DNA from: DATDCY01 sp031406795 [NCBI: Candidatus Rokuibacteriota bacterium]
GTDB taxonomy: Bacteria > JAUVQV01
Direction of reading: 5' to 3'
NCBI GenBank assembly: GCA_031406795.1
Contig: JANOHV010000078.1
Coordinates: 1-11,551, forward strand
DNA length: 11,551 bases
Shown here: piece by piece, positions 2,243 to 11,537 of the stretch
Numbering within the stretch: position 1 is the stretch's first letter
How the letters are laid out: every line of letters begins with the position of its first letter
Made by a program: the position numbers and the translations under genes
The notes under the pieces: generated by a model
Databases searched by the model: none
Seen by the model: only the letters and a program-made list of their open reading frames with translations
Told to the model about the DNA's origin: nothing

Positions 2243-5200
2243 ATGCGCCTTGAGGACATTCAGCCAGGCGCATCCCTGAACGGCTTAGAGACCGTTGCCG
2301 TCGCCACCGTTGTTGCCGTGGTGCCGATCTCTGCGGATACCATTCAACTCGTATATAAAACGCCGGACGGCACTTTGAAGGACATCCTCCTCGGGCGACA
2401 CGATGAGGAAAGCATCACCCCAGCCACACGGGAGCGCCCGTGGTCGTTCGACGGCGACGGCGCCGCTTTCAAACTGGCGGTCGAGGCCAAGCGAATCGAC
2501 CTGGCGTTCCTGTTCGATCCCATGATGGCCGTCCACACATCCAATGTCGAACCCCTTCCGCATCAGATCACCGCGGTTTACGAGTCCATGCTTCCTCGTC
2601 AGCCGCTGCGCTTCGTGTTGGCCGACGACCCGGGGGCCGGAAAAACAATCATGGCTGGCCTCTACATTCGCGAACTCATCATGCGAGCCGATTCCCGCCG
2701 TATTCTTGTAGTCGCTCCCGGCAGTCTGGTCGAGCAATGGCGCGACGAGTTGTTCGAGAAGTTCGGACTCCAGTTCAATGTGTTTTCCTCCGCTCTTGAG
2801 GCGGCTACACCAACCGGCAATCCCTTCGAGGATCTTGACCACCTCATCGTCCGGCTCGATCAGATGGCTCGCAACGAAGAACTTCAGGAGAAGCTGCTTG
2901 CCGCCTCATGGGATCTAGTGATTTTCGATGAGGCCCACAAACTCGCCGCTCATTTCTTTGGCTCCAAACTCGAAAAGACCGGGCGCTTCATCCTCGCGGA
3001 GAAACTCGGTGCCCGCACCCGGCATCTCCTGCTGATGACCGCCACGCCGCACAGCGGGAAAGAGGAGGACTTCCAGCTTTTCCTCTCGCTGCTCGACTCC
3101 GATCGCTTCTACGGCAGGTTCCGCGATGGCGTCCACAAGGCCGATTCCTCGGATCTCATGCGCCGCATGGTGAAGGAGGAAATGTGCAAGTTCGACGGCA
3201 CGCCCTTGTTCCCCGAGCGCCGCGCCTACACGGCCAATTACAAACTCTCCAACATCGAGTCCGCGCTTTATGAGGCAGTCACTTCCTACGTGAAGACCGA
3301 GATGGGCAAGGCCGACGCACTCAAAGGCCCCCGCAAAGGTTCGGTCGGTTTCGCGCTGACTTCACTCCAGCGCCGACTCGCCTCCAGCCCCGAGGCCATT
3401 TATCAATCCCTCAAGCGTCGCCGCGAACGTCTGGAAAACCGTTTACGCGAGGAAAACCTGTTGGCCCGTGGTCAGCAATTCTCCGCCCAGATTTTGGAAG
3501 CGCCGCCGGAAGACGACGACGACCTGAGCGCCGAGGAGCAGGAGGAGCTGGAAGAAAAGCTCACCGACACGGCCACTGCCGCCGAGACCATCGCCGAACT
3601 CGAAGCCGAGATCGCCATTCTCGCCAGTCTGGTCGAGCAAGCTCGCGGCGTGGTGGATTCGGGACTTGATCGCAAGTGGGACGAACTTTCGAAGATTCTC
3701 CAGAACGATCCCAACATGCGCGATGCCGGTGGTCGCCAGCGCAAGATGATTGTCTTCACCGAGCACCGCGACACCCTTAACTATCTGGAGCGGAAAATCG
3801 GCGGTGTTCTCGGCACACCCGACGCGATTGTCACGATCCACGGTGGCACGCACCGCGACGAACGCCGCAAGCGCCAGGCCCTGTTCCGTTCCGACCCCGA
3901 AGTCCGTATCCTTCTCGCCACCGATGCTGCTGGTGAAGGCGTGAACCTCCAGAACGCCAATCTCATGGTCAATTACGATCTGCCATGGAACCCGAACCGC
4001 CTCGAACAACGCTTCGGGCGTATCCACCGCATCGGCCAACAAGAGGTCTGCCATCTCTGGAACCTCGTGGCCAAAGAAACCCGCGAAGGCGAGGTCTACC
4101 ACCGCCTCCTCACGAAGCTCGAAACCATCAACGAGACCTTCAAAGGGCGCGTGTTCGATATTCTCGGTGAGGTGTTCGAGGAAAAGAGTCTCAAGGATCT
4201 TCTCCTCGATGCTATCCGCTACAACGACCAGCCCGAGGTTCGTGCCCGCCTCGCCCACAGCATCGACACCGCCTTCGACAACAGCCGCATCAAGGAACTT
4301 CTCGAACGGAACGCGCTCGCGCAGGAAACCATGAGCGCAGAGCGGCTCTTCGCCGTGAAGGAACAGATGGAAATGGCAGAGGCCCGCCGACTTCAGCCTT
4401 ACTTCGTCCGCTCATTCTTCACGAAGGCGTTCGAGGGTCTCGGCGGAGCCATGTATCCCCGTGAGCCGGGCCGCTGGGAGATCACCCACGTTCCCGCCCT
4501 CATTCGCGAGCGCGACCGCCGGATCACCGGGCGCAACCGTCGCGAACTTGCTCCCGTCCTGAAACGATACGAGCGCGCCTGTTTCACCAAGGAAGCCGTC
4601 CGTCCGCTTGACCGGCCGGGCATACCGTTCGCCCAGATGATCCACCCTGGCCACCCGCTCATGCTTGCTGTCAGTGACATAGTGCTGGAGCAGCACAGCA
4701 ATTTAATGCGCCAGGGCGCGATCCTCGTGGACCCCGCCGACGAGGGTGAAGAAGCCTCGCTCCTTTTCCTCATCACCCACGAGATCAAATCCGGCGACAG
4801 CACCGTCCTTTCCAAGCGGCTCCAGTTCGTCCACGTCACTCCCGCCGGCAAAGCCTCCTTTGCAGGATGGGCACCGCACCTCGATTACGAGCCTTTGGCC
4901 GACGCCGACCGCGCCTTGCTCGCCGGCCTGCTTGAGTCCGACTGGATTCGCGCCGATCAGGAGCAAAAAGCCCTTGCCCTCGCCGCCACCACACTTGTCC
5001 CCGAGCATTACGGTGAAGTCGCCGGCCGCCGCATTGCCCATGTGGACAAGACCCTTGCCGCCGTTCACGAGCGGTTGACCAAAGAAATCGCCTTCTGGTC
5101 CGACCGCTGGATGAGACTCAAAGAGGATCAGGAAGCCGGGAAAGACGTGCGCCTGAATCTCGAAAACATCCAGCGCACTATCAACGACCTCGAAGGCCGT

Positions 5201-5758
5201 CTGCAAAACCGGAAGAAGGAACTCCAGTCCATGCGCCACGTTACCAATGGCACCCCGGTCGTTCTCGGTGGCGCGCTCGTGGTCCCCATCGGCCTGTTGC
5301 GCAAGCTGCGGGCTGAGCCGGCACCCGATGCCGCAATGGCTGCGTTCTCCGCCGACCCCGCAGCTCGTTCGCGCATTGAGCAGTTAGCCATGAACGCCGT
5401 CCGTCTTGCCGAAGAAGCTCGCGGCTGCCGTGTGGTGGATGTCTCCGCCCAGAAATGCGGCTGGGACATCACCTCCTATGCGCCTGCCGTGGATGGCAAA
5501 TTGCCCGAGTCCCGCCACATCGAGGTCAAAGGCCGCGTCAAGGGCGCGACCACGGTCACGGTGACCAAGAACGAAATCTTCGAAAGCTGGAACCAGGGCG
5601 TCAAGTACCACCTCGCCATCGTTCTCGTCGGCGAAGACGACTCCATCGACGGTCCCTACTACGTGCCCCATCCCTTCAAGGAAGAACCCGGCTGGGGCGT
5701 GGCCTCCGTGAATTACATTCTCAATGACCTGCTTGCGCGTGCCGGAGGCGTCCTGTGA
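2243..5758 (+). CDS. SNF2-type superfamily 2 helicase with C-terminal DUF3883 domain (defence system helicase)
   Basis: 1171 residues, full length for the family as I know it. Motif I is D128-D-P-G-A-G-K134-T135, the Walker A variant usual in this branch; motif II is D229-E-A-H232; a T-A-T-P-H motif III follows. The second RecA-like domain has I-V-F-T-E-H-R, then [11 protein letters not shown] and the arginine-finger motif Q589[10 protein letters not shown]599. Between the two domains, around residues 420-470, lies an acidic, glutamate-rich probable coiled coil. Residues about 1043-1135 form a DUF3883 domain (C-G-W-D-I-T...I-E-V-K-G), a nuclease-like or recognition fold common in defence helicases. 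The protein should be an ATP-dependent DNA translocase acting on foreign DNA. The start M-R-L-E-D-I-Q-P-G is family-like although no good ribosome binding site precedes it. Its stop overlaps the next start by four bases. DrmD of DISARM is related, but the DUF1156/DUF499 partners point to an Hma-like system. Confidence 0.93.
5744..5748 (+). promoter_or_regulatory. Ribosome binding site GGAGG deciding the GTG start at 5755
   Basis: GGAGG lies inside the last codons of the helicase gene, six bases before GTG 5755. With the four-base GTGA overlap it supports coupled translation of the DUF4062 protein with the helicase. Confidence 0.7.
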
Positions 5759-6885
5759 ACAGGCACCGCTCGCTTGTGTTCATTTCCAGCGTGCAAAAGG
5801 AATTGGCAGAGGAACGCCAGGCTCTCAAGTCTTTTATCGAGGGCGACGCACTTCTGCGCCGGTTCTTCGAGGTGTTTCTCTTTGAGGAGTTGCCGGCGTC
5901 GGGCCGCCGGGCGGATGAGGTTTATCTTGCGGAAGTGGATCGTTGCGACGTGTATCTTGCCCTCCTCGGCAACGAGTACGGCCACAAAGACCGGGAAGGC
6001 TTGTCCCCCACCGAGCGCGAGTTTGACCGTGCCACCGCCAAAGGCAAAGAGCGGCTGGTGTACATCAAAGGCGCCGACGACATCGCCCGCCATCCCAAGA
6101 TGCAGTCGCTTATCGACAAGGCCAGCGCGCAACTTACCCGGCGCCGGTTCGGTAGCGTGCCCGAGCTGACCGCACTCGTTTATGCCAGTCTCGTCGAGCA
6201 CCTTGAGCGCAGCGGACATCTTCGCACCAAGCCCTTCGACGCCGCCGTCTGTCCGGACGCCACGTTGGCCGATCTCTCGCGCGAGAAACTCGCCGAGTTC
6301 CTGGCCGCCGCCAAGGCTGAGCGGGCTTATGTGGTCGGGCCGCGAACCTCGACCCCAAAAGCGCTGGCCCATCTGAATCTGCTGGACGGCGACAAACCCA
6401 GCCATGCCGCCGTGCTGTTGTTCGGGAAGAAGCCCCAGCGCTTTCTCATTACCTCCGAAGTCAAGTGCATGCACTTTCACGGCACCGAGGTGCAGAAGCC
6501 CATCCCCTCCTACCACATCTACAAGGGCACGGTCTTCGAACTGGTTGATCAGGCGGTGGATTTCGTCATGGCCAAGATCGACCGTGCCGTCATTCCCCAG
6601 GACGACGCTGTCGCCAGTCAGGTGAAATACGAGCTGCCGTACAAGGCGGTGCGCGAAGCCATCGTCAACGCCGTGACGCACCGCGATTACACCAGCAACG
6701 CCAGTGTGCAGGTTATGCTTTTCGCCGACCGACTCGAAGTCTGGAATCCCGGCGAACTGCCGCCGACACTGACCATCGCCGGGTTGCGCCTACCGCACGC
6801 CTCTATTCCGCATAATCCCCTCATCGCCGAACCCATGTTCCTTGCAACGTATGCAGAGAAAGCCGGTAGCGGCAACTCGACATGA
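5755..6885 (+). CDS. DUF4062 / GHKL-type ATPase protein, N-terminal part of a frameshifted gene
   Basis: 376 residues from GTG 5755. Residues about 4-90 are a DUF4062 domain ([11 protein letters not shown] at the start, then [14 protein letters not shown]), a TIR/SLOG-like Rossmann fold seen in prokaryotic conflict systems and thought to sense or bind nucleotide-derived signals. Residues about 150-370 match the COG2865 type of ATP-binding regulator: A-V-L-L-F-G-K-x-P-Q-R-F, and the ATP-binding N-box E301-A-I-V-N305 followed by H-R-D-Y. The frame ends N-S-T-stop just after Y-A-E-K-A-G-S-G, where relatives continue G-T-L-D-M-I. That continuation is present in another frame from 6882, so one base was lost near 6874-6876. 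The stop and the ATG of the second part overlap as ATGA, so reinitiation could yield both halves. Its position between helicase and methylase suggests a sensor or regulator of the system; that role is inference. Confidence 0.85.
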
Positions 6886-7346
6886 TCAAACTCTGCCGGG
6901 CGGCCGGTGTTCGCGCCCCGGACTTCCGGCAGGATGGCGGCCAGTTCGTGCAGACCCTTTGGCGGCCCAAGCCGAATGCGACCGCGCAAGTCACCGCGCA
7001 AGTCGGCACAGAATCCAATGTCTTCAAAGACAAGGTGTTGCAAGAGCTCGCTGAGACTCTGGGAACCCCCGCCGCGCAAGTCACCGCGCAAGTCACCGCG
7101 CAAGTCATCAAGGTGCTCGATGCGGCGGCAAGTGAGGCAAAAAACCGCGAGGATCTCCAATCAGTAGCAGACATCGCCCATCGCGAACACTTTCGTAAAT
7201 TCTACGTCGAACCGATGGTGGAGTCTGGCTGGCTCGAACGCACCATCCCCGACAAGCCCACCAGCCGATTCCAGAAATACCGGCTCACGGCGAAAGGCCA
7301 CGCCTGGTTGGCGAACGCGAAAACCGCCGGGAAAAGACCTTCATGA
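6882..7346 (+). CDS. C-terminal winged-helix part of the frameshifted DUF4062 gene
   Basis: 154 codons from ATG 6882. The first residues (M-I-K-L-C-R-A-A-G, then [15 protein letters not shown]) directly continue the ATPase domain of the preceding frame, as in intact relatives. Then come five copies of a four-residue unit (T/A-A-Q-V) in two blocks, and from about residue 85 a winged-helix domain (R-E-D-L-Q-S...R-E-H-F-R-K-F-Y, ending [11 protein letters not shown]). With one base restored, 5755-7346 would encode a single protein of about 530 residues, the expected size. The stop overlaps the methylase start (ATGA, 7343-7346), continuing the coupling. As an independent protein it would be a small DNA-binding domain. 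Whether it is expressed through reinitiation at the ATGA overlap, is dead, or is an assembly artefact cannot be told from sequence alone. Confidence 0.72.
6981..7004 (+). repeat. Tandem 12-base repeat, first block (two copies)
   Basis: ACCGCGCAAGTC occurs at 6981-6992 and 6993-7004 without a spacer and encodes T-A-Q-V twice. Relatives of this ATPase family often carry similar T-P-Q-V type repeats before the winged helix, so the array is probably a flexible linker able to expand or contract by slippage without changing frame. Confidence 0.8.
7071..7106 (+). repeat. Tandem 12-base repeat, second block (three copies)
   Basis: GCCGCGCAAGTC (7071-7082) is followed by ACCGCGCAAGTC at 7083-7094 and 7095-7106, encoding [12 protein letters not shown]. 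The unit is identical at the base level to the block 66 bases upstream, which suggests recent duplication or conversion rather than protein-level selection alone. Confidence 0.8.
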
Positions 7347-7594
7347 CCTATCCCGTCAAATCACCTCGCAAGCTGATCGAGGTTGCGCTGCCGTTGGATG
7401 CGATCAATGCCGCCTGCTCGCGGGAGAAGTCCATCCGACACGGGCATCCGTCCACACTCCACCTCTGGTGGGCGCGACGGCCTCTGGCGGCGGCGCGAGC
7501 TGTCATCTTTGCGCAGTTGGTAAATGACCCCGGTTATCAGCAGGGCGGGGGCTCCAAATACGGGCGGGAAGAACAAGAAAGAAGCCGCGATTGA
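7343..7594 (+). pseudogene. DUF1156 (COG1743) adenine methyltransferase, N-terminal piece before a frameshift
   Basis: The frame starts at ATG 7343, overlapping the previous stop as ATGA. Residues about 5-60 are a very recognisable DUF1156 domain: [15 protein letters not shown], then [21 protein letters not shown] and [13 protein letters not shown]. After G-S-K-Y-G the frame turns into unrelated residues and stops at 7592-7594, while the expected sequence (G-K-N-K-K-E-A) continues in the next frame. One extra G in the run at 7562-7564 explains this exactly: removing it gives [10 protein letters not shown]. An intact protein of this family methylates adenine in host DNA to mark it as self, so the frameshift by itself would prevent full-length production. 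Confidence 0.85.
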
Positions 7595-8717
7595 GCGGAA
7601 GCGGCTCTTCAAGATCATCGAAGACCTTGTGCTGTGGGAAAACACCACGAACGAAACCGTCCTCGAAGCTGCCCGCGTCGAGATCCGCCGCTCGTGGCGG
7701 GAGGTGTGCGAACTGAACAAGGACCACCCGCAGGCACTTCAGACGCACCCAGCTTTGCCTGTCACCATTTACTACGCGTTTAAGCAGGCAGAAACCGACT
7801 CGGAGTCCGGCACCGTTTCGACTGGATGGGAGACCTTCCTTGAAGCTGTTACACGCGCTGGTTTACAGTTGTCGGGCACATGGCCAATGCGCACGGAGCT
7901 TGAAAATAGGCCACGCGGAAGTGGGTCCAACGCCCTCGCTTCCAGCATCGTCCTTGTCTGTCGCAAACGCCCCGCCGATGCGCCGACGATTTCCCGCCGT
8001 GAGTTCATCCGCGAATTGAACGGACTCCTGCCAGATGCGCTCGACGTGATGACCAAAGGCTCCGGCGATGACCGTTCGCCCGTCGCACCGGTGGACCTCT
8101 CGCAGGCCATCATCGGGCCGGGCACGGCCGTCTTTTCCAAATACGCCGCCGTGCTGGAGGCCGACGGTTCGCCCATGAGCGTCCGCACCGCCCTCCAGCT
8201 TATCAACCGCTTCCTAGCTGAAGACGACTTCGACGCCGACACCCAGTTCTGCCTCCACTGGTTCGAGCAACACGGCTGGGCCGAAGGAGTTTTTGGTGAT
8301 GCTGACACGCTGTCGCGTGGCAAAGGCACGAGCGTGGACGGGATGAAGGAAGCCGGCGTCCTGCAAAGCGGCAGCGGCAAAGTCCGCCTCCTCAAGTGGG
8401 CCGAGTATCCCACCGGTTGGGACCCGAGCACCGATAAGCGCACACCAGTGTGGGAAGGCCTGCACCAGCTCATCCGGGCACTGAAACAAGGCGGAGAATC
8501 CGCCTCCGGCGCACTCCTCGCAGCCCTCGGTGGTAAAGCTGAAGCCATCCGCCAACTCGCCTACCGTCTCTACACCCTCTGCGAACGCCTCGGCAAAGCC
8601 GAAGACGCCCGCGGCTATAATGAACTCATCACGAGCTGGACGGGCATCGAAACCGCTGCTGCCAGCGTCACCGTCCCAGAACCGGCCGCCCCGTATTTGC
8701 CCGGCTTTGAAAAATAA
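7524..8717 (+). pseudogene. DUF1156 methyltransferase, C-terminal piece with the catalytic core deleted
   Basis: An open frame of 397 codons (first ATG 7524, without a clear ribosome binding site). True homology starts at G-K-N-K-K-E-A near codon 15 and runs through W-E-N-T-T-N-E and [17 protein letters not shown]71. In intact relatives the SAM-binding motif (D-P-F-A-G-G-G) follows almost at once, and the catalytic D-P-P-Y comes several hundred residues later. Here codon 72 jumps directly to [17 protein letters not shown], the segment after D-P-P-Y. Some 450-550 residues, including both motifs, are absent, and the join at about 7737 keeps the frame. The rest ([23 protein letters not shown], and the helical tail ending L-P-G-F-E-K) is uninterrupted. 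It cannot be a methyltransferase; a residual scaffold role is possible but unproven. Confidence 0.85.
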
Positions 8718-8722
8718 AGGAG
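8716..8722 (+). promoter_or_regulatory. Strong ribosome binding site AAAGGAG for the DUF499 ATPase
   Basis: AAAGGAG overlaps the stop of the methylase remnant and lies seven bases before ATG 8730. It fixes the start and lets the ATPase be translated even though the two genes upstream are broken. Confidence 0.75.
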
Positions 8723-8729
8723 CCGTAAT

Positions 8730-11537
8730 ATGAGCCTGAAACCGTGGCGAGAAATCATCGTTCCTCATCCTGACGTTCTGAATGGCACGTTCCAACAGTC
8801 TGAATTTGCCGCCGACCTCACGGCAGTACGCACGGGTAAAGCAACCCCGGAATACGGCGACGCTCAAGCATTCTACGAACGCACCTTCATTACCGAGGGT
8901 ATGGGACGCCTCCTCACGCAGGTGGCACAGCGGCTCAATGGCAAAGGTGGCGAGCCGGTCATCCAACTGCAAACCGCCTTCGGTGGTGGCAAGACGCACA
9001 CTTTGCTGGCGGTGTACCATCTGGCCTCACGCAAGTGCCCGTTGGGCGACCTCGCTGGCATCCCGGCACTGCTCGATCAGGCAGGACTGTTGGATGTGCC
9101 ACAGGCGCAGATCGCGGTGCTGGATGGCACGGCCCACGCCCCCGGCCAGCGGTGGAAGCATGGCAAGCAAACGATTCGGACGCTCTGGGGTGAATTGGCA
9201 TGGCAACTTGGCCAGGCGGAGGGGTTCGCGCTGGTGCAGGAGTCCGATGCGAACGGAACCTCGCCGGGGAAGGATGTACTCTGCACACTTCTGACCCGCT
9301 TCGCGCCGTGCGTAATTCTGCTGGATGAATTGGTCGTTTACATCCGCCAGTTCGTGGAAAGCCAGCCGTTGAGTGGAGGCACGTACGACAGCAACCTTTC
9401 TTTCATCCAATCGCTTACTGAGGCTGCCAAGCTGGTGCCAAACGCTGCGGTGCTGGCGTCTCTGCCGGAATCCGATAGCCAGGCCGGTGGTCCGCGTGGC
9501 GTAGCGGCATTGAAGGCGCTGGAGGCGGTCTTTAACCGGGTGCAGGCACTCTGGAAAACAGTTGCCCCCGAGGAAGCCTTTGAGATCGTCCGGCGGCGCT
9601 TGTTTGAACAAATCCGTGACGCCAAGGCGCGTGACCAGGTCTGCCGAGCTTTTGCCGACGCCTACGTGGCCGAAGGCGCTAAACTGCCGCAGGAAACACA
9701 GGAGTCCCGCTACTTTGATCGAATGATGCAGAGTTACCCCATCCACCCGGAGGTCTTCGCCCAACTCTACGAGGAGTGGACGACGATTGATGGATTCCAA
9801 CGCACTCGCGGCGTGCTGAAACTCATGGCCAAGGTTATCTATCGTCTGTGGCAGGACGACAACAAGGACCTGATGATCCTTCCCGGCAGTCTGCCGCTTT
9901 ATGACAGCAGTGCGCGCAATGAGCTGATCTACTATCTCGGGCCGGGCTGGGATCCGGTGATGGACCGTGATATTGACGGCGAGAGAGCCGAGACCACGAT
10001 ACTGGAAACCAAGGAGACGCGATTCGGCTCCGTGCAGGCTGCACGCAGGGTGGCGCGGACGGTGTTCCTGAGCAGCGCGCCGTCATCGGTAAACGCAAAA
10101 CCTGGAACCCGCGGCATCGACCGTGGGCGAGTTCTGCTGGGCTGTCTCCAACCCGGCCAAACTTCCTCACTCTACTCCGATGCACTGAACCGATTGGCGG
10201 ATCAGCTCCACTACCTAAACTCCTCCGGTGATAGGACGCAGGATGCGACCCGCTATTGGTTCGACACTCGCGCAAATCTGCGCCGGGAGATGGAGGAGCG
10301 AAAGAAGCGGTTCGAAGACAAGAATGAAGTGCGCGGACGGATGGCGAAGATCGTCGAGAAGCTCGTCGCCGGCGCGACATTCTTTAACGGCACGCATATC
10401 TTCACACCGCACAGCGATGTGCCCGACGATGGGGCGCTGCGTTTGGTTGTGCTGGCACCGGAGCAGTTTTATTCCCGCGAGGAAACCCGTCTGGCCTTCG
10501 ATGGTGTGCTGGACTATGTGCGCAACAACGGAACGAAACCGAGGTATCGCGGCAATCGCTTGCTCTTCGTCGCGCCTGATCACGGAGCCCTGACGCGACT
10601 GCGCGATTGCATCCGCGTGGCGTTGGCTTGGAACTCCATTGTCGAAGATGTCGCAGCGATGCGGTTGGTACTGGACAATCTCCAGGCTGAGCAAGCTCTG
10701 AAAGAACTGAGAACTGCGGAAGACGTTTTGCCACGTGTCGCCCGGGAATGCTACAAATGGCTCCTCTGCCCGTCACAAGACAGCCCCACAGGCAAGCCGG
10801 CCGTGGAGACTTTTCCGATCAACACCAGCGGGGCTACTTTGGGGCCTGAGATCGAGCGGGTGTGCATCGACCAAGTGCTGGTGATCACCACCTGGTCACC
10901 GATTCATCTGCGGGATGAGTTAAAGAAACTCTACTGGAAGGCCGACAAGATCGCCGTGACAGCCGCCGACTTCTGGGAAGACACACTTAGATACCTTTAT
11001 CTCCCGCGCTTGAAAGATCGCGGCGTGCTGGCGCAGGCCATCGTCAAGGGTGCCGGAACAAGCGACTTTTTCGGCACCGCCTATAGCCAGAACGGAGAAA
11101 TATTCGAGGGCTTCAAGCTTGGCGATGCCAACGTGCAACTCGACGACACGCTGCTGCTGATCGAACCCGCCGCCGCCAAAGCGTATGGAGTCGCGCATCC
11201 GCCACTCATTCCGCCCGGACCACCTTGCCCCCCTGAACCGCCACGCCCGCCTGGCCCACCCGGACCTCCAGAACCGCCACGACCTCCAGGACCGCCTCCG
11301 ACTTCGAAGGCAAAAACATTCTACGGTTCAGCAGACGTCGCACCTGCAACGGCCAAAGTGCGTCTCGTCCAGATCGCAGAGGAAATTATCGCCATACTCG
11401 CCGCCGACCCGAACGCCGAGGTCAAAGTCAGCGTCGAGATACAGGCGAACTTCCCCAATGGCGCGCAGGATCAGTCAAAGCGCGCAGTCTCCGAGAATGC
11501 AAGGACGCTCGGGTTCAATAATGCAGAGTGGGAATGA
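8730..11537 (+). CDS. DUF499 (COG1483) AAA-type ATPase of the defence system
   Basis: 935 residues, intact from ATG 8730 to TGA. It starts [15 protein letters not shown], typical of the family. Walker A is A83-F-G-G-G-K88-T89-H-T and Walker B is V-I-L-L-D199-E200, in the expected order and spacing for an ATPase module of about 350 residues. The middle holds R-Y-F-D-R-M...Y-P-I-H-P-E and R-T-R-G-V-L-K-L-M, the latter resembling the region with the sensing arginine. Residues 828-857 form a run of P-P-x triplets that links to a small C-terminal domain (F-Y-G-S...V-K-V-S-V-E-I-Q-A) also found at the end of relatives, so the C-terminus is complete. The family is a fixed partner of DUF1156 methylases and SNF2/DUF3883 helicases and is related in role to BrxC/PglY of BREX. 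It is probably the ATP-driven assembly or switch subunit. It is the best-preserved gene besides the helicase. Confidence 0.92.
11211..11300 (+). repeat. P-P-x triplet repeat (10 units) in the DUF499 ATPase
   Basis: Codons 828-857 encode ten consecutive Pro-Pro-x triplets with x = G, C, E, R, G, G, E, R, G, P. A higher-order unit of 12 residues ([12 protein letters not shown]) is nearly duplicated. A polyproline or collagen-like rod would keep the small C-terminal domain apart from the ATPase. Such a run is expected to slow ribosomes and need EF-P. Confidence 0.85.

Follow-up and report, generated by a model that had tools for sequence, protein, structure and literature searches.

Hma (helicase-methylase-ATPase), a DUF499-centered and BREX-related defense system, was named in PMC8565338, where the passages on this system describe HmaB as an m5C methylase; PADLOC-DB, unlike those passages, describes it as an adenine methylase. 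According to the sections of PMC12839542 on the HmaB family, the C-terminal region of the protein is HTH-like. For the related Type I BREX, the parts of PMC11842806 that deal with the methylase report that this enzyme acts as the sensor of unmethylated sites and works only when complexed with its partners, that its deletion causes no toxicity, and that mutation of the tyrosine in its NPPY motif abolishes both methylation and defense, again without toxicity. A further point of comparison is Swarozyc, a defense system built on a DUF4062 TIR-like NADase (PMC13174449), which is characterized by NADase activity and by activation through the phage portal.

Here, we analyzed a stretch of 11,551 nucleotides (hereafter, the window) from DATDCY01 sp031406795, a Candidatus Rokuibacteriota bacterium (contig JANOHV010000078.1). 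Judged by its genes, the region at 2243-11537 is an Hma defense operon with the order hmaA, accessory DUF4062 gene, hmaB, and hmaC, and it is a broken member of Hma, not a working one. We consider it quite likely that hmaB is a recently inactivated pseudogene in an otherwise well-preserved anti-phage operon. The features are as follows.

2243-5758, + strand: hmaA, SNF2/DEAD helicase with a C-terminal NOV_C (PD-(D/E)XK-like) domain, intact (PADLOC, Pfam, motifs)
5755-6885, + strand: accessory gene part 1, DUF4062 (TIR-like NADase family) and the start of HATPase_c_4, frame ending early (Pfam PF13271, PF13749)
6871-6885 (approximately), + strand: frameshift in the accessory gene, net loss of 1 bp against homologues (L083 and L113 run through)
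6882-7346, + strand: accessory gene part 2, rest of the HATPase and a wHTH (Fic-like_C; Pfam PF21247), homologous to the C-terminus of L113
7343-8717, + strand: hmaB remnants overall (PADLOC pieces in frames 7343-7594 and 7524-8717)
7343-7594, + strand: hmaB 5' remnant, DUF1156 (Pfam DUF1156, E = 4e-30; HmaB profile 1-80 of 967)
7561-7568, + strand: 4-bp tandem duplication, CGGG CGGG, causing the hmaB frameshift (alignment with relatives)
7566-7735, + strand: hmaB middle remnant, out of frame with the 5' remnant and ending in NKDHPQA (tblastn, query residues 15-71/73 in relatives; alignment)
7733-7740, + strand: deletion junction, ~1.5 kb (~515 codons) gone (alignment with relatives)
7736-8717, + strand: hmaB 3' remnant, end of the methylase domain and C-terminal region (HmaB profile 647-957 of 967)
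8730-11537, + strand: hmaC, DUF499 AAA+ ATPase, intact (PADLOC, Pfam DUF499, its own AGGAG 5' of the gene)

The two outer genes identify the system. HmaA matched its PADLOC profile over nearly the full length (1982.7 bits, residues 1-1167 on profile positions 2-1169 of 1176), with the Pfam domains Helicase_C and NOV_C and the motifs GAGKT, DEAH, TATP, RFGRIHR, and WD...EVKG, and HmaC matched over its full length (1372.4 bits, residues 1-935 on positions 1-940 of 941), with the motifs GGGKT and VILLDE. By these matches, they are the helicase and the DUF499 AAA+ ATPase expected of an Hma system. The remnants between them score as HmaB, but the core with motif I and DPPY is absent and the frame is broken. 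The window thus shares with Hma, as presented in the relevant passages of PMC8565338 and PMC12839542, the gene order, an HmaA with a nuclease-like C-terminus, DUF1156 (here as remnants), and the DUF499 ATPase, whereas it differs from the usual Hma in an hmaB that is frameshifted and without a catalytic core, and in the DUF4062 gene that lies between hmaA and hmaB. Because HmaA ends in a nuclease-like domain, in agreement with the Type-1 form as set out in those sections of PMC12839542, the operon is probably of Type-1 among the DUF499-centered BREX-related systems. Canonical BREX is not indicated, as neither PglZ/BrxZ nor BrxC appeared among the PADLOC matches listed for the six operon frames (for HmaA, the best 25 of 49 families). 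At 1600-1880, the − strand holds a fragment that is bounded upstream by stop codons and that, as we take it, resembles a substrate-binding protein. Since the GC content drops from ~0.70 to 0.53 across it, this region may mark where an island gained by horizontal transfer begins or ends.

The main lesion is the loss of the catalytic core of hmaB. In a tblastn comparison of the HmaB of one relative (L001, 970 amino acids) with the window, residues 3-79 mapped to 7349-7579, residues 43-132 to 7485-7742 in a different frame than 3-79, and residues 646-969 to 7734-8711, whereas for residues ~131-645 even the best hit in the window fell short of significance (E = 3.5). The 3' remnant is 84% identical to L001 (E = 3e-176). 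In L001, FAGGG lies at residue 146 and DPPY at residue 574, both within the segment that the window has lost, and the patterns F-[ACGS]-G-[GS]-G and [DNS]-P-P-[YFW] are absent from all six frames of 7343-8717. The lost segment probably also includes the target-recognition insert.

For the size of the loss, we turned to 82 relative loci (the best 80 of 376 in genome contigs, plus two viral ones), of which 65 contain hmaB as one open full-length frame, 8 have it cut by contig ends alone, and 9 are otherwise incomplete. All 65 full-length relatives were tried, and 36 passed the alignment filter, aligning on both sides of the junction. The implied loss is divisible by 3 in 36 of 36, and amounts to 1518-1578 bp in 33 of them and to 1944-2133 bp in the remaining three. 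Past the junction, the frame runs on for 326 open codons before it reaches its stop. These results partly bear out an earlier note on this DNA, which had described a core-less DUF1156 protein beside an intact helicase and ATPase (as the profile matches and motifs confirm), ~450-550 missing residues (~515 codons by the comparison with L001), no D-P-P-Y or F-A-G-G-G in 7343-8717, a join near 7737 that keeps the frame of its neighbors, and about 330 stop-free codons after it. While the large in-frame internal deletion claimed there stands, the accompanying claim of one frame at 7343-8717, encoding a single short protein, does not: The CGGG duplication, which is missing in all 13 aligned relatives, changes the reading frame, and a TGA at 7592-7594 closes the DUF1156 frame and cuts it off from the rest of hmaB, which lies in another frame. 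No single open reading frame, as a short HmaB should have, runs through the remnants, and the internal ATG at 7524 has nothing resembling AGGAG in front of it. Hence, hmaB carries two separate lesions, a core deletion and a frameshift.

The frameshift in the accessory gene, which the earlier note had missed, is the third lesion of the locus. Homologues of this gene were found in one frame in L083 (496 amino acids) and in L113, a Legionella anisa plasmid (503 amino acids), and the homologue in L085 is continuous at the frameshift site and broken elsewhere. Positions 6983-7110, between the HATPase and the wHTH, consist of AQVTAQV-type repeats, and the homologues have GEMSGEM or GQVAGQV there. 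As in Swarozyc, a DUF4062 domain is present (PF13271, E = 3.4e-22), whereas in the window this domain is joined to HATPase_c_4 and a wHTH, lies within an Hma operon, and is part of a frameshifted gene. The main text of PMC12839542 makes no mention of DUF4062, nor does that of PMC13174449 mention Hma. The DUF4062 part found no match in the DNA of the 82 relative loci, and no relatives of it were present in the viral contigs searched. One of the loci (L012) has a Schlafen/AlbA_2 plus HATPase_c_4 gene between hmaA and hmaB, and two others (L035 and L039) have such genes before hmaC. Because the HATPase_c_4 accessory genes of these three loci carry Schlafen/AlbA_2, the putative NADase seems to stand where those genes have the Schlafen domain, attached to a comparable HATPase scaffold.

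Damaged Hma genes were also found elsewhere. Among the nine loci with an otherwise incomplete hmaB, three (L011, L048, and L060) were counted as cut and not as broken, given a first frame near the locus start, and in L004, L017, L022, L032, L068, and L080 the gene is apparently truly broken, each time in a different way. In L022, a deletion at ~4990-5020 sets hmaA residue ~422 beside hmaB residue ~313. For hmaA and hmaC, six loci each of the 82 were neither full nor end-cut, a class of which the check by hand covered some members only; in L057, a large internal deletion of hmaC at ~9060-9100 has removed residues ~140 to 700. In two further genomes, HmaB is split into two frames at residue ~358 (G549) or stops after residue ~584 (G535).

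HmaB matches occurred in 75 plasmid records, of which three, picked for having no annotated feature under the match, were read. An Aeromonas caviae plasmid has hmaA, hmaB, and hmaC all intact. The Sulfuricystis multivorans plasmid pSTJ2 (L110, 7204-8760; also present as G666 and counted as one case) retains just the 3' ends of hmaA (residues 1012-1167) and hmaB (residues 701-957, in two frames), and no hmaC is found in the DNA examined. In the finished Thermus oshimai JL-2 plasmid pTHEOS01 (L111, 4899-8963), hmaB is split into two halves (query residues 5-493 and 488-965) that overlap by ~6 residues, with an annotated IS4 transposase between them and full-length hmaA and HEPN-annotated DUF499 frames beside them. 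The window and pTHEOS01 thus both have hmaB broken in two frames next to full-length hmaA and DUF499 genes, whereas a transposase gene interrupts hmaB in Thermus and a deletion does so in the window, and only the Thermus DUF499 protein is annotated with HEPN. Since pTHEOS01 is a finished plasmid, the loss of hmaB with hmaA and hmaC kept is neither unique nor limited to draft assemblies. Programmed phase variation was considered for these breaks and set aside, as no shared tract or repeat was seen, by eye, at the breaks of L004, L017, L022, L032, L057, L068, and L080. Close to the break there are six consecutive G in L032 and a CG run in L057, and slippage is possible in these single cases. The duplication in the window consists of two CGGG units only.

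The loss of hmaB looks recent. We examined columns that are near-invariant (at least 97%) among the most similar relatives (30 for HmaA, 40 for the others), and counted 0 of 45, 0 of 24, and 1 of 139 deviations in the three hmaB remnants, against median rates of 0.000, 0.000, and 0.007 in the relatives, a test of limited power given its 208 remnant columns and the damage in some of the relatives themselves. In the window's HmaA and HmaC, 1 of 256 and 2 of 276 such columns deviate. A gene that has long been unused should have drifted, and the remnants show no excess drift; a recent loss would likewise explain why HmaA and HmaC are still intact. In none of the 36 aligned relatives do the two sides of the breakpoint have more than 5 bp in common in register, which led us to reject a deletion between direct repeats. 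Illegitimate recombination at very short homology would instead have removed the methylase core, and slippage would have produced the small indels, i.e., the 4-bp duplication and the 1-bp loss. All three lesions, which lie within ~870 bp, fall in the two middle genes, and the chance that three random lesions in the operon would all hit these two genes is ~0.03, a figure computed post hoc.

That the organism has an intact hmaB, of which the contig misjoins parts or carries indel errors, is in our estimate improbable, even if the clustering of three lesions in so short a stretch and the fully conserved look of the remnants would both suit such an artifact. For a k-mer assembler to make a false join, the two sides must have a long word in common, and they offer no more than those few base pairs in register; moreover, each of hmaA and hmaC, which add up to 6.3 kb, is one full-profile open frame, so the general rate of indel errors looks low. 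We give still far less credence, next to none, to a functional short HmaB subfamily that would bind DNA as a subunit lacking methylase activity. The join in the frame of its neighbors and the open and conserved C-terminal region would fit such a protein, and a core-less C-terminal HmaB remnant also exists on the Sulfuricystis plasmid. This remnant, however, also lacks DUF1156 and lies in two frames next to the mere end of hmaA, and in the window the frameshift parts DUF1156 from the rest of the gene, with no AGGAG-like sequence ahead of the internal start. The earlier note had itself allowed for a natural short subfamily. The form in which residue 130 is joined to 646 occurred in 0 of 82 relative loci, all 82 of which retain coding sequence before residue 646 that the window lacks, and it was absent among the matches listed from profile searches of 387 and 398 genomes (HmaB matches in 22 and 18 of them, respectively, with scoring limited to two candidates in each genome). 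We therefore rejected such a subfamily. The plasmids and phages searched held no close copies of the window, nor was the exact junction sequence found in the viral contigs searched. Three genomes (G259, G300, and G453) have a strong HmaC and no HmaB match at E = 1e-50, with no HmaB in the DNA from hmaC to the contig end, which spans just 1.4-2.0 kb, where accessory genes often sit, so that these genomes carry no weight either way.

Two other readings would keep HmaA and HmaC at work. Methylation could be supplied in trans by another, intact DUF1156 enzyme encoded at a different place in the genome, in line with the intact and conserved state of both proteins; by analogy with the BREX methylase, which acts only in complex in the cited parts of PMC11842806, an unrelated enzyme would nevertheless have to fit these partners, and we regard this as very improbable. 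It is also highly unlikely, in our view, that the locus is a methylase-free Hma derivative, with HmaA and HmaC under selection, either without self-marking at specific sites or served by a methylase in trans, and with the DUF4062 frameshift as a compensating change. If this were true, the frameshift in a suicide-type DUF4062 effector would have made the loss of self-marking survivable.

We thus return to hmaB as a recent pseudogene, and to what its loss would do. The earlier note had called a core-less methylase beside an intact helicase and ATPase a paradox, should the system still attack unmodified DNA. This assumes that the helicase-nuclease attacks without the methylase, and if the methylase is the sensor, as the quoted parts of PMC11842806 have it for BREX, where its deletion is nontoxic, the paradox would fall; pTHEOS01 has also lost hmaB. 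In related systems, the methylase recognizes the target for both self-marking and attack, and loss of HmaB would by this analogy silence the whole system rather than turn it on the host: The missing part of HmaB should include the target-recognition insert, and HmaA and HmaC would be left blind to their sites. The absent core and broken frame, together with the BREX analogy, thus lend support to one option that the note had named, that of a silent system. Two points weigh on the other side, namely that the conservation of HmaA and HmaC matches that of intact systems and would be compatible as well with continued use of the system, and that a pseudogene does not require a deletion in multiples of 3, for which the chance is 1 in 3.

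Overall, the locus presents a naturally occurring methylase-loss state of Hma with helicase and ATPase intact. It parallels the Type I BREX systems with brxX/pglX deleted or mutated, as described in those parts of PMC11842806, in being the methylase-less state of a related system, whereas the loss was engineered there and is natural in the window, and no PglZ is seen in the window operon. Viewed on its own, the case is an ordinary pseudogene, and the point about sensing is a modest one. Taken together with the Thermus case, it suggests, by analogy, that in Hma, as in BREX, loss of the methylase need not kill the cell and that the methylase of Hma may also be its sensor.
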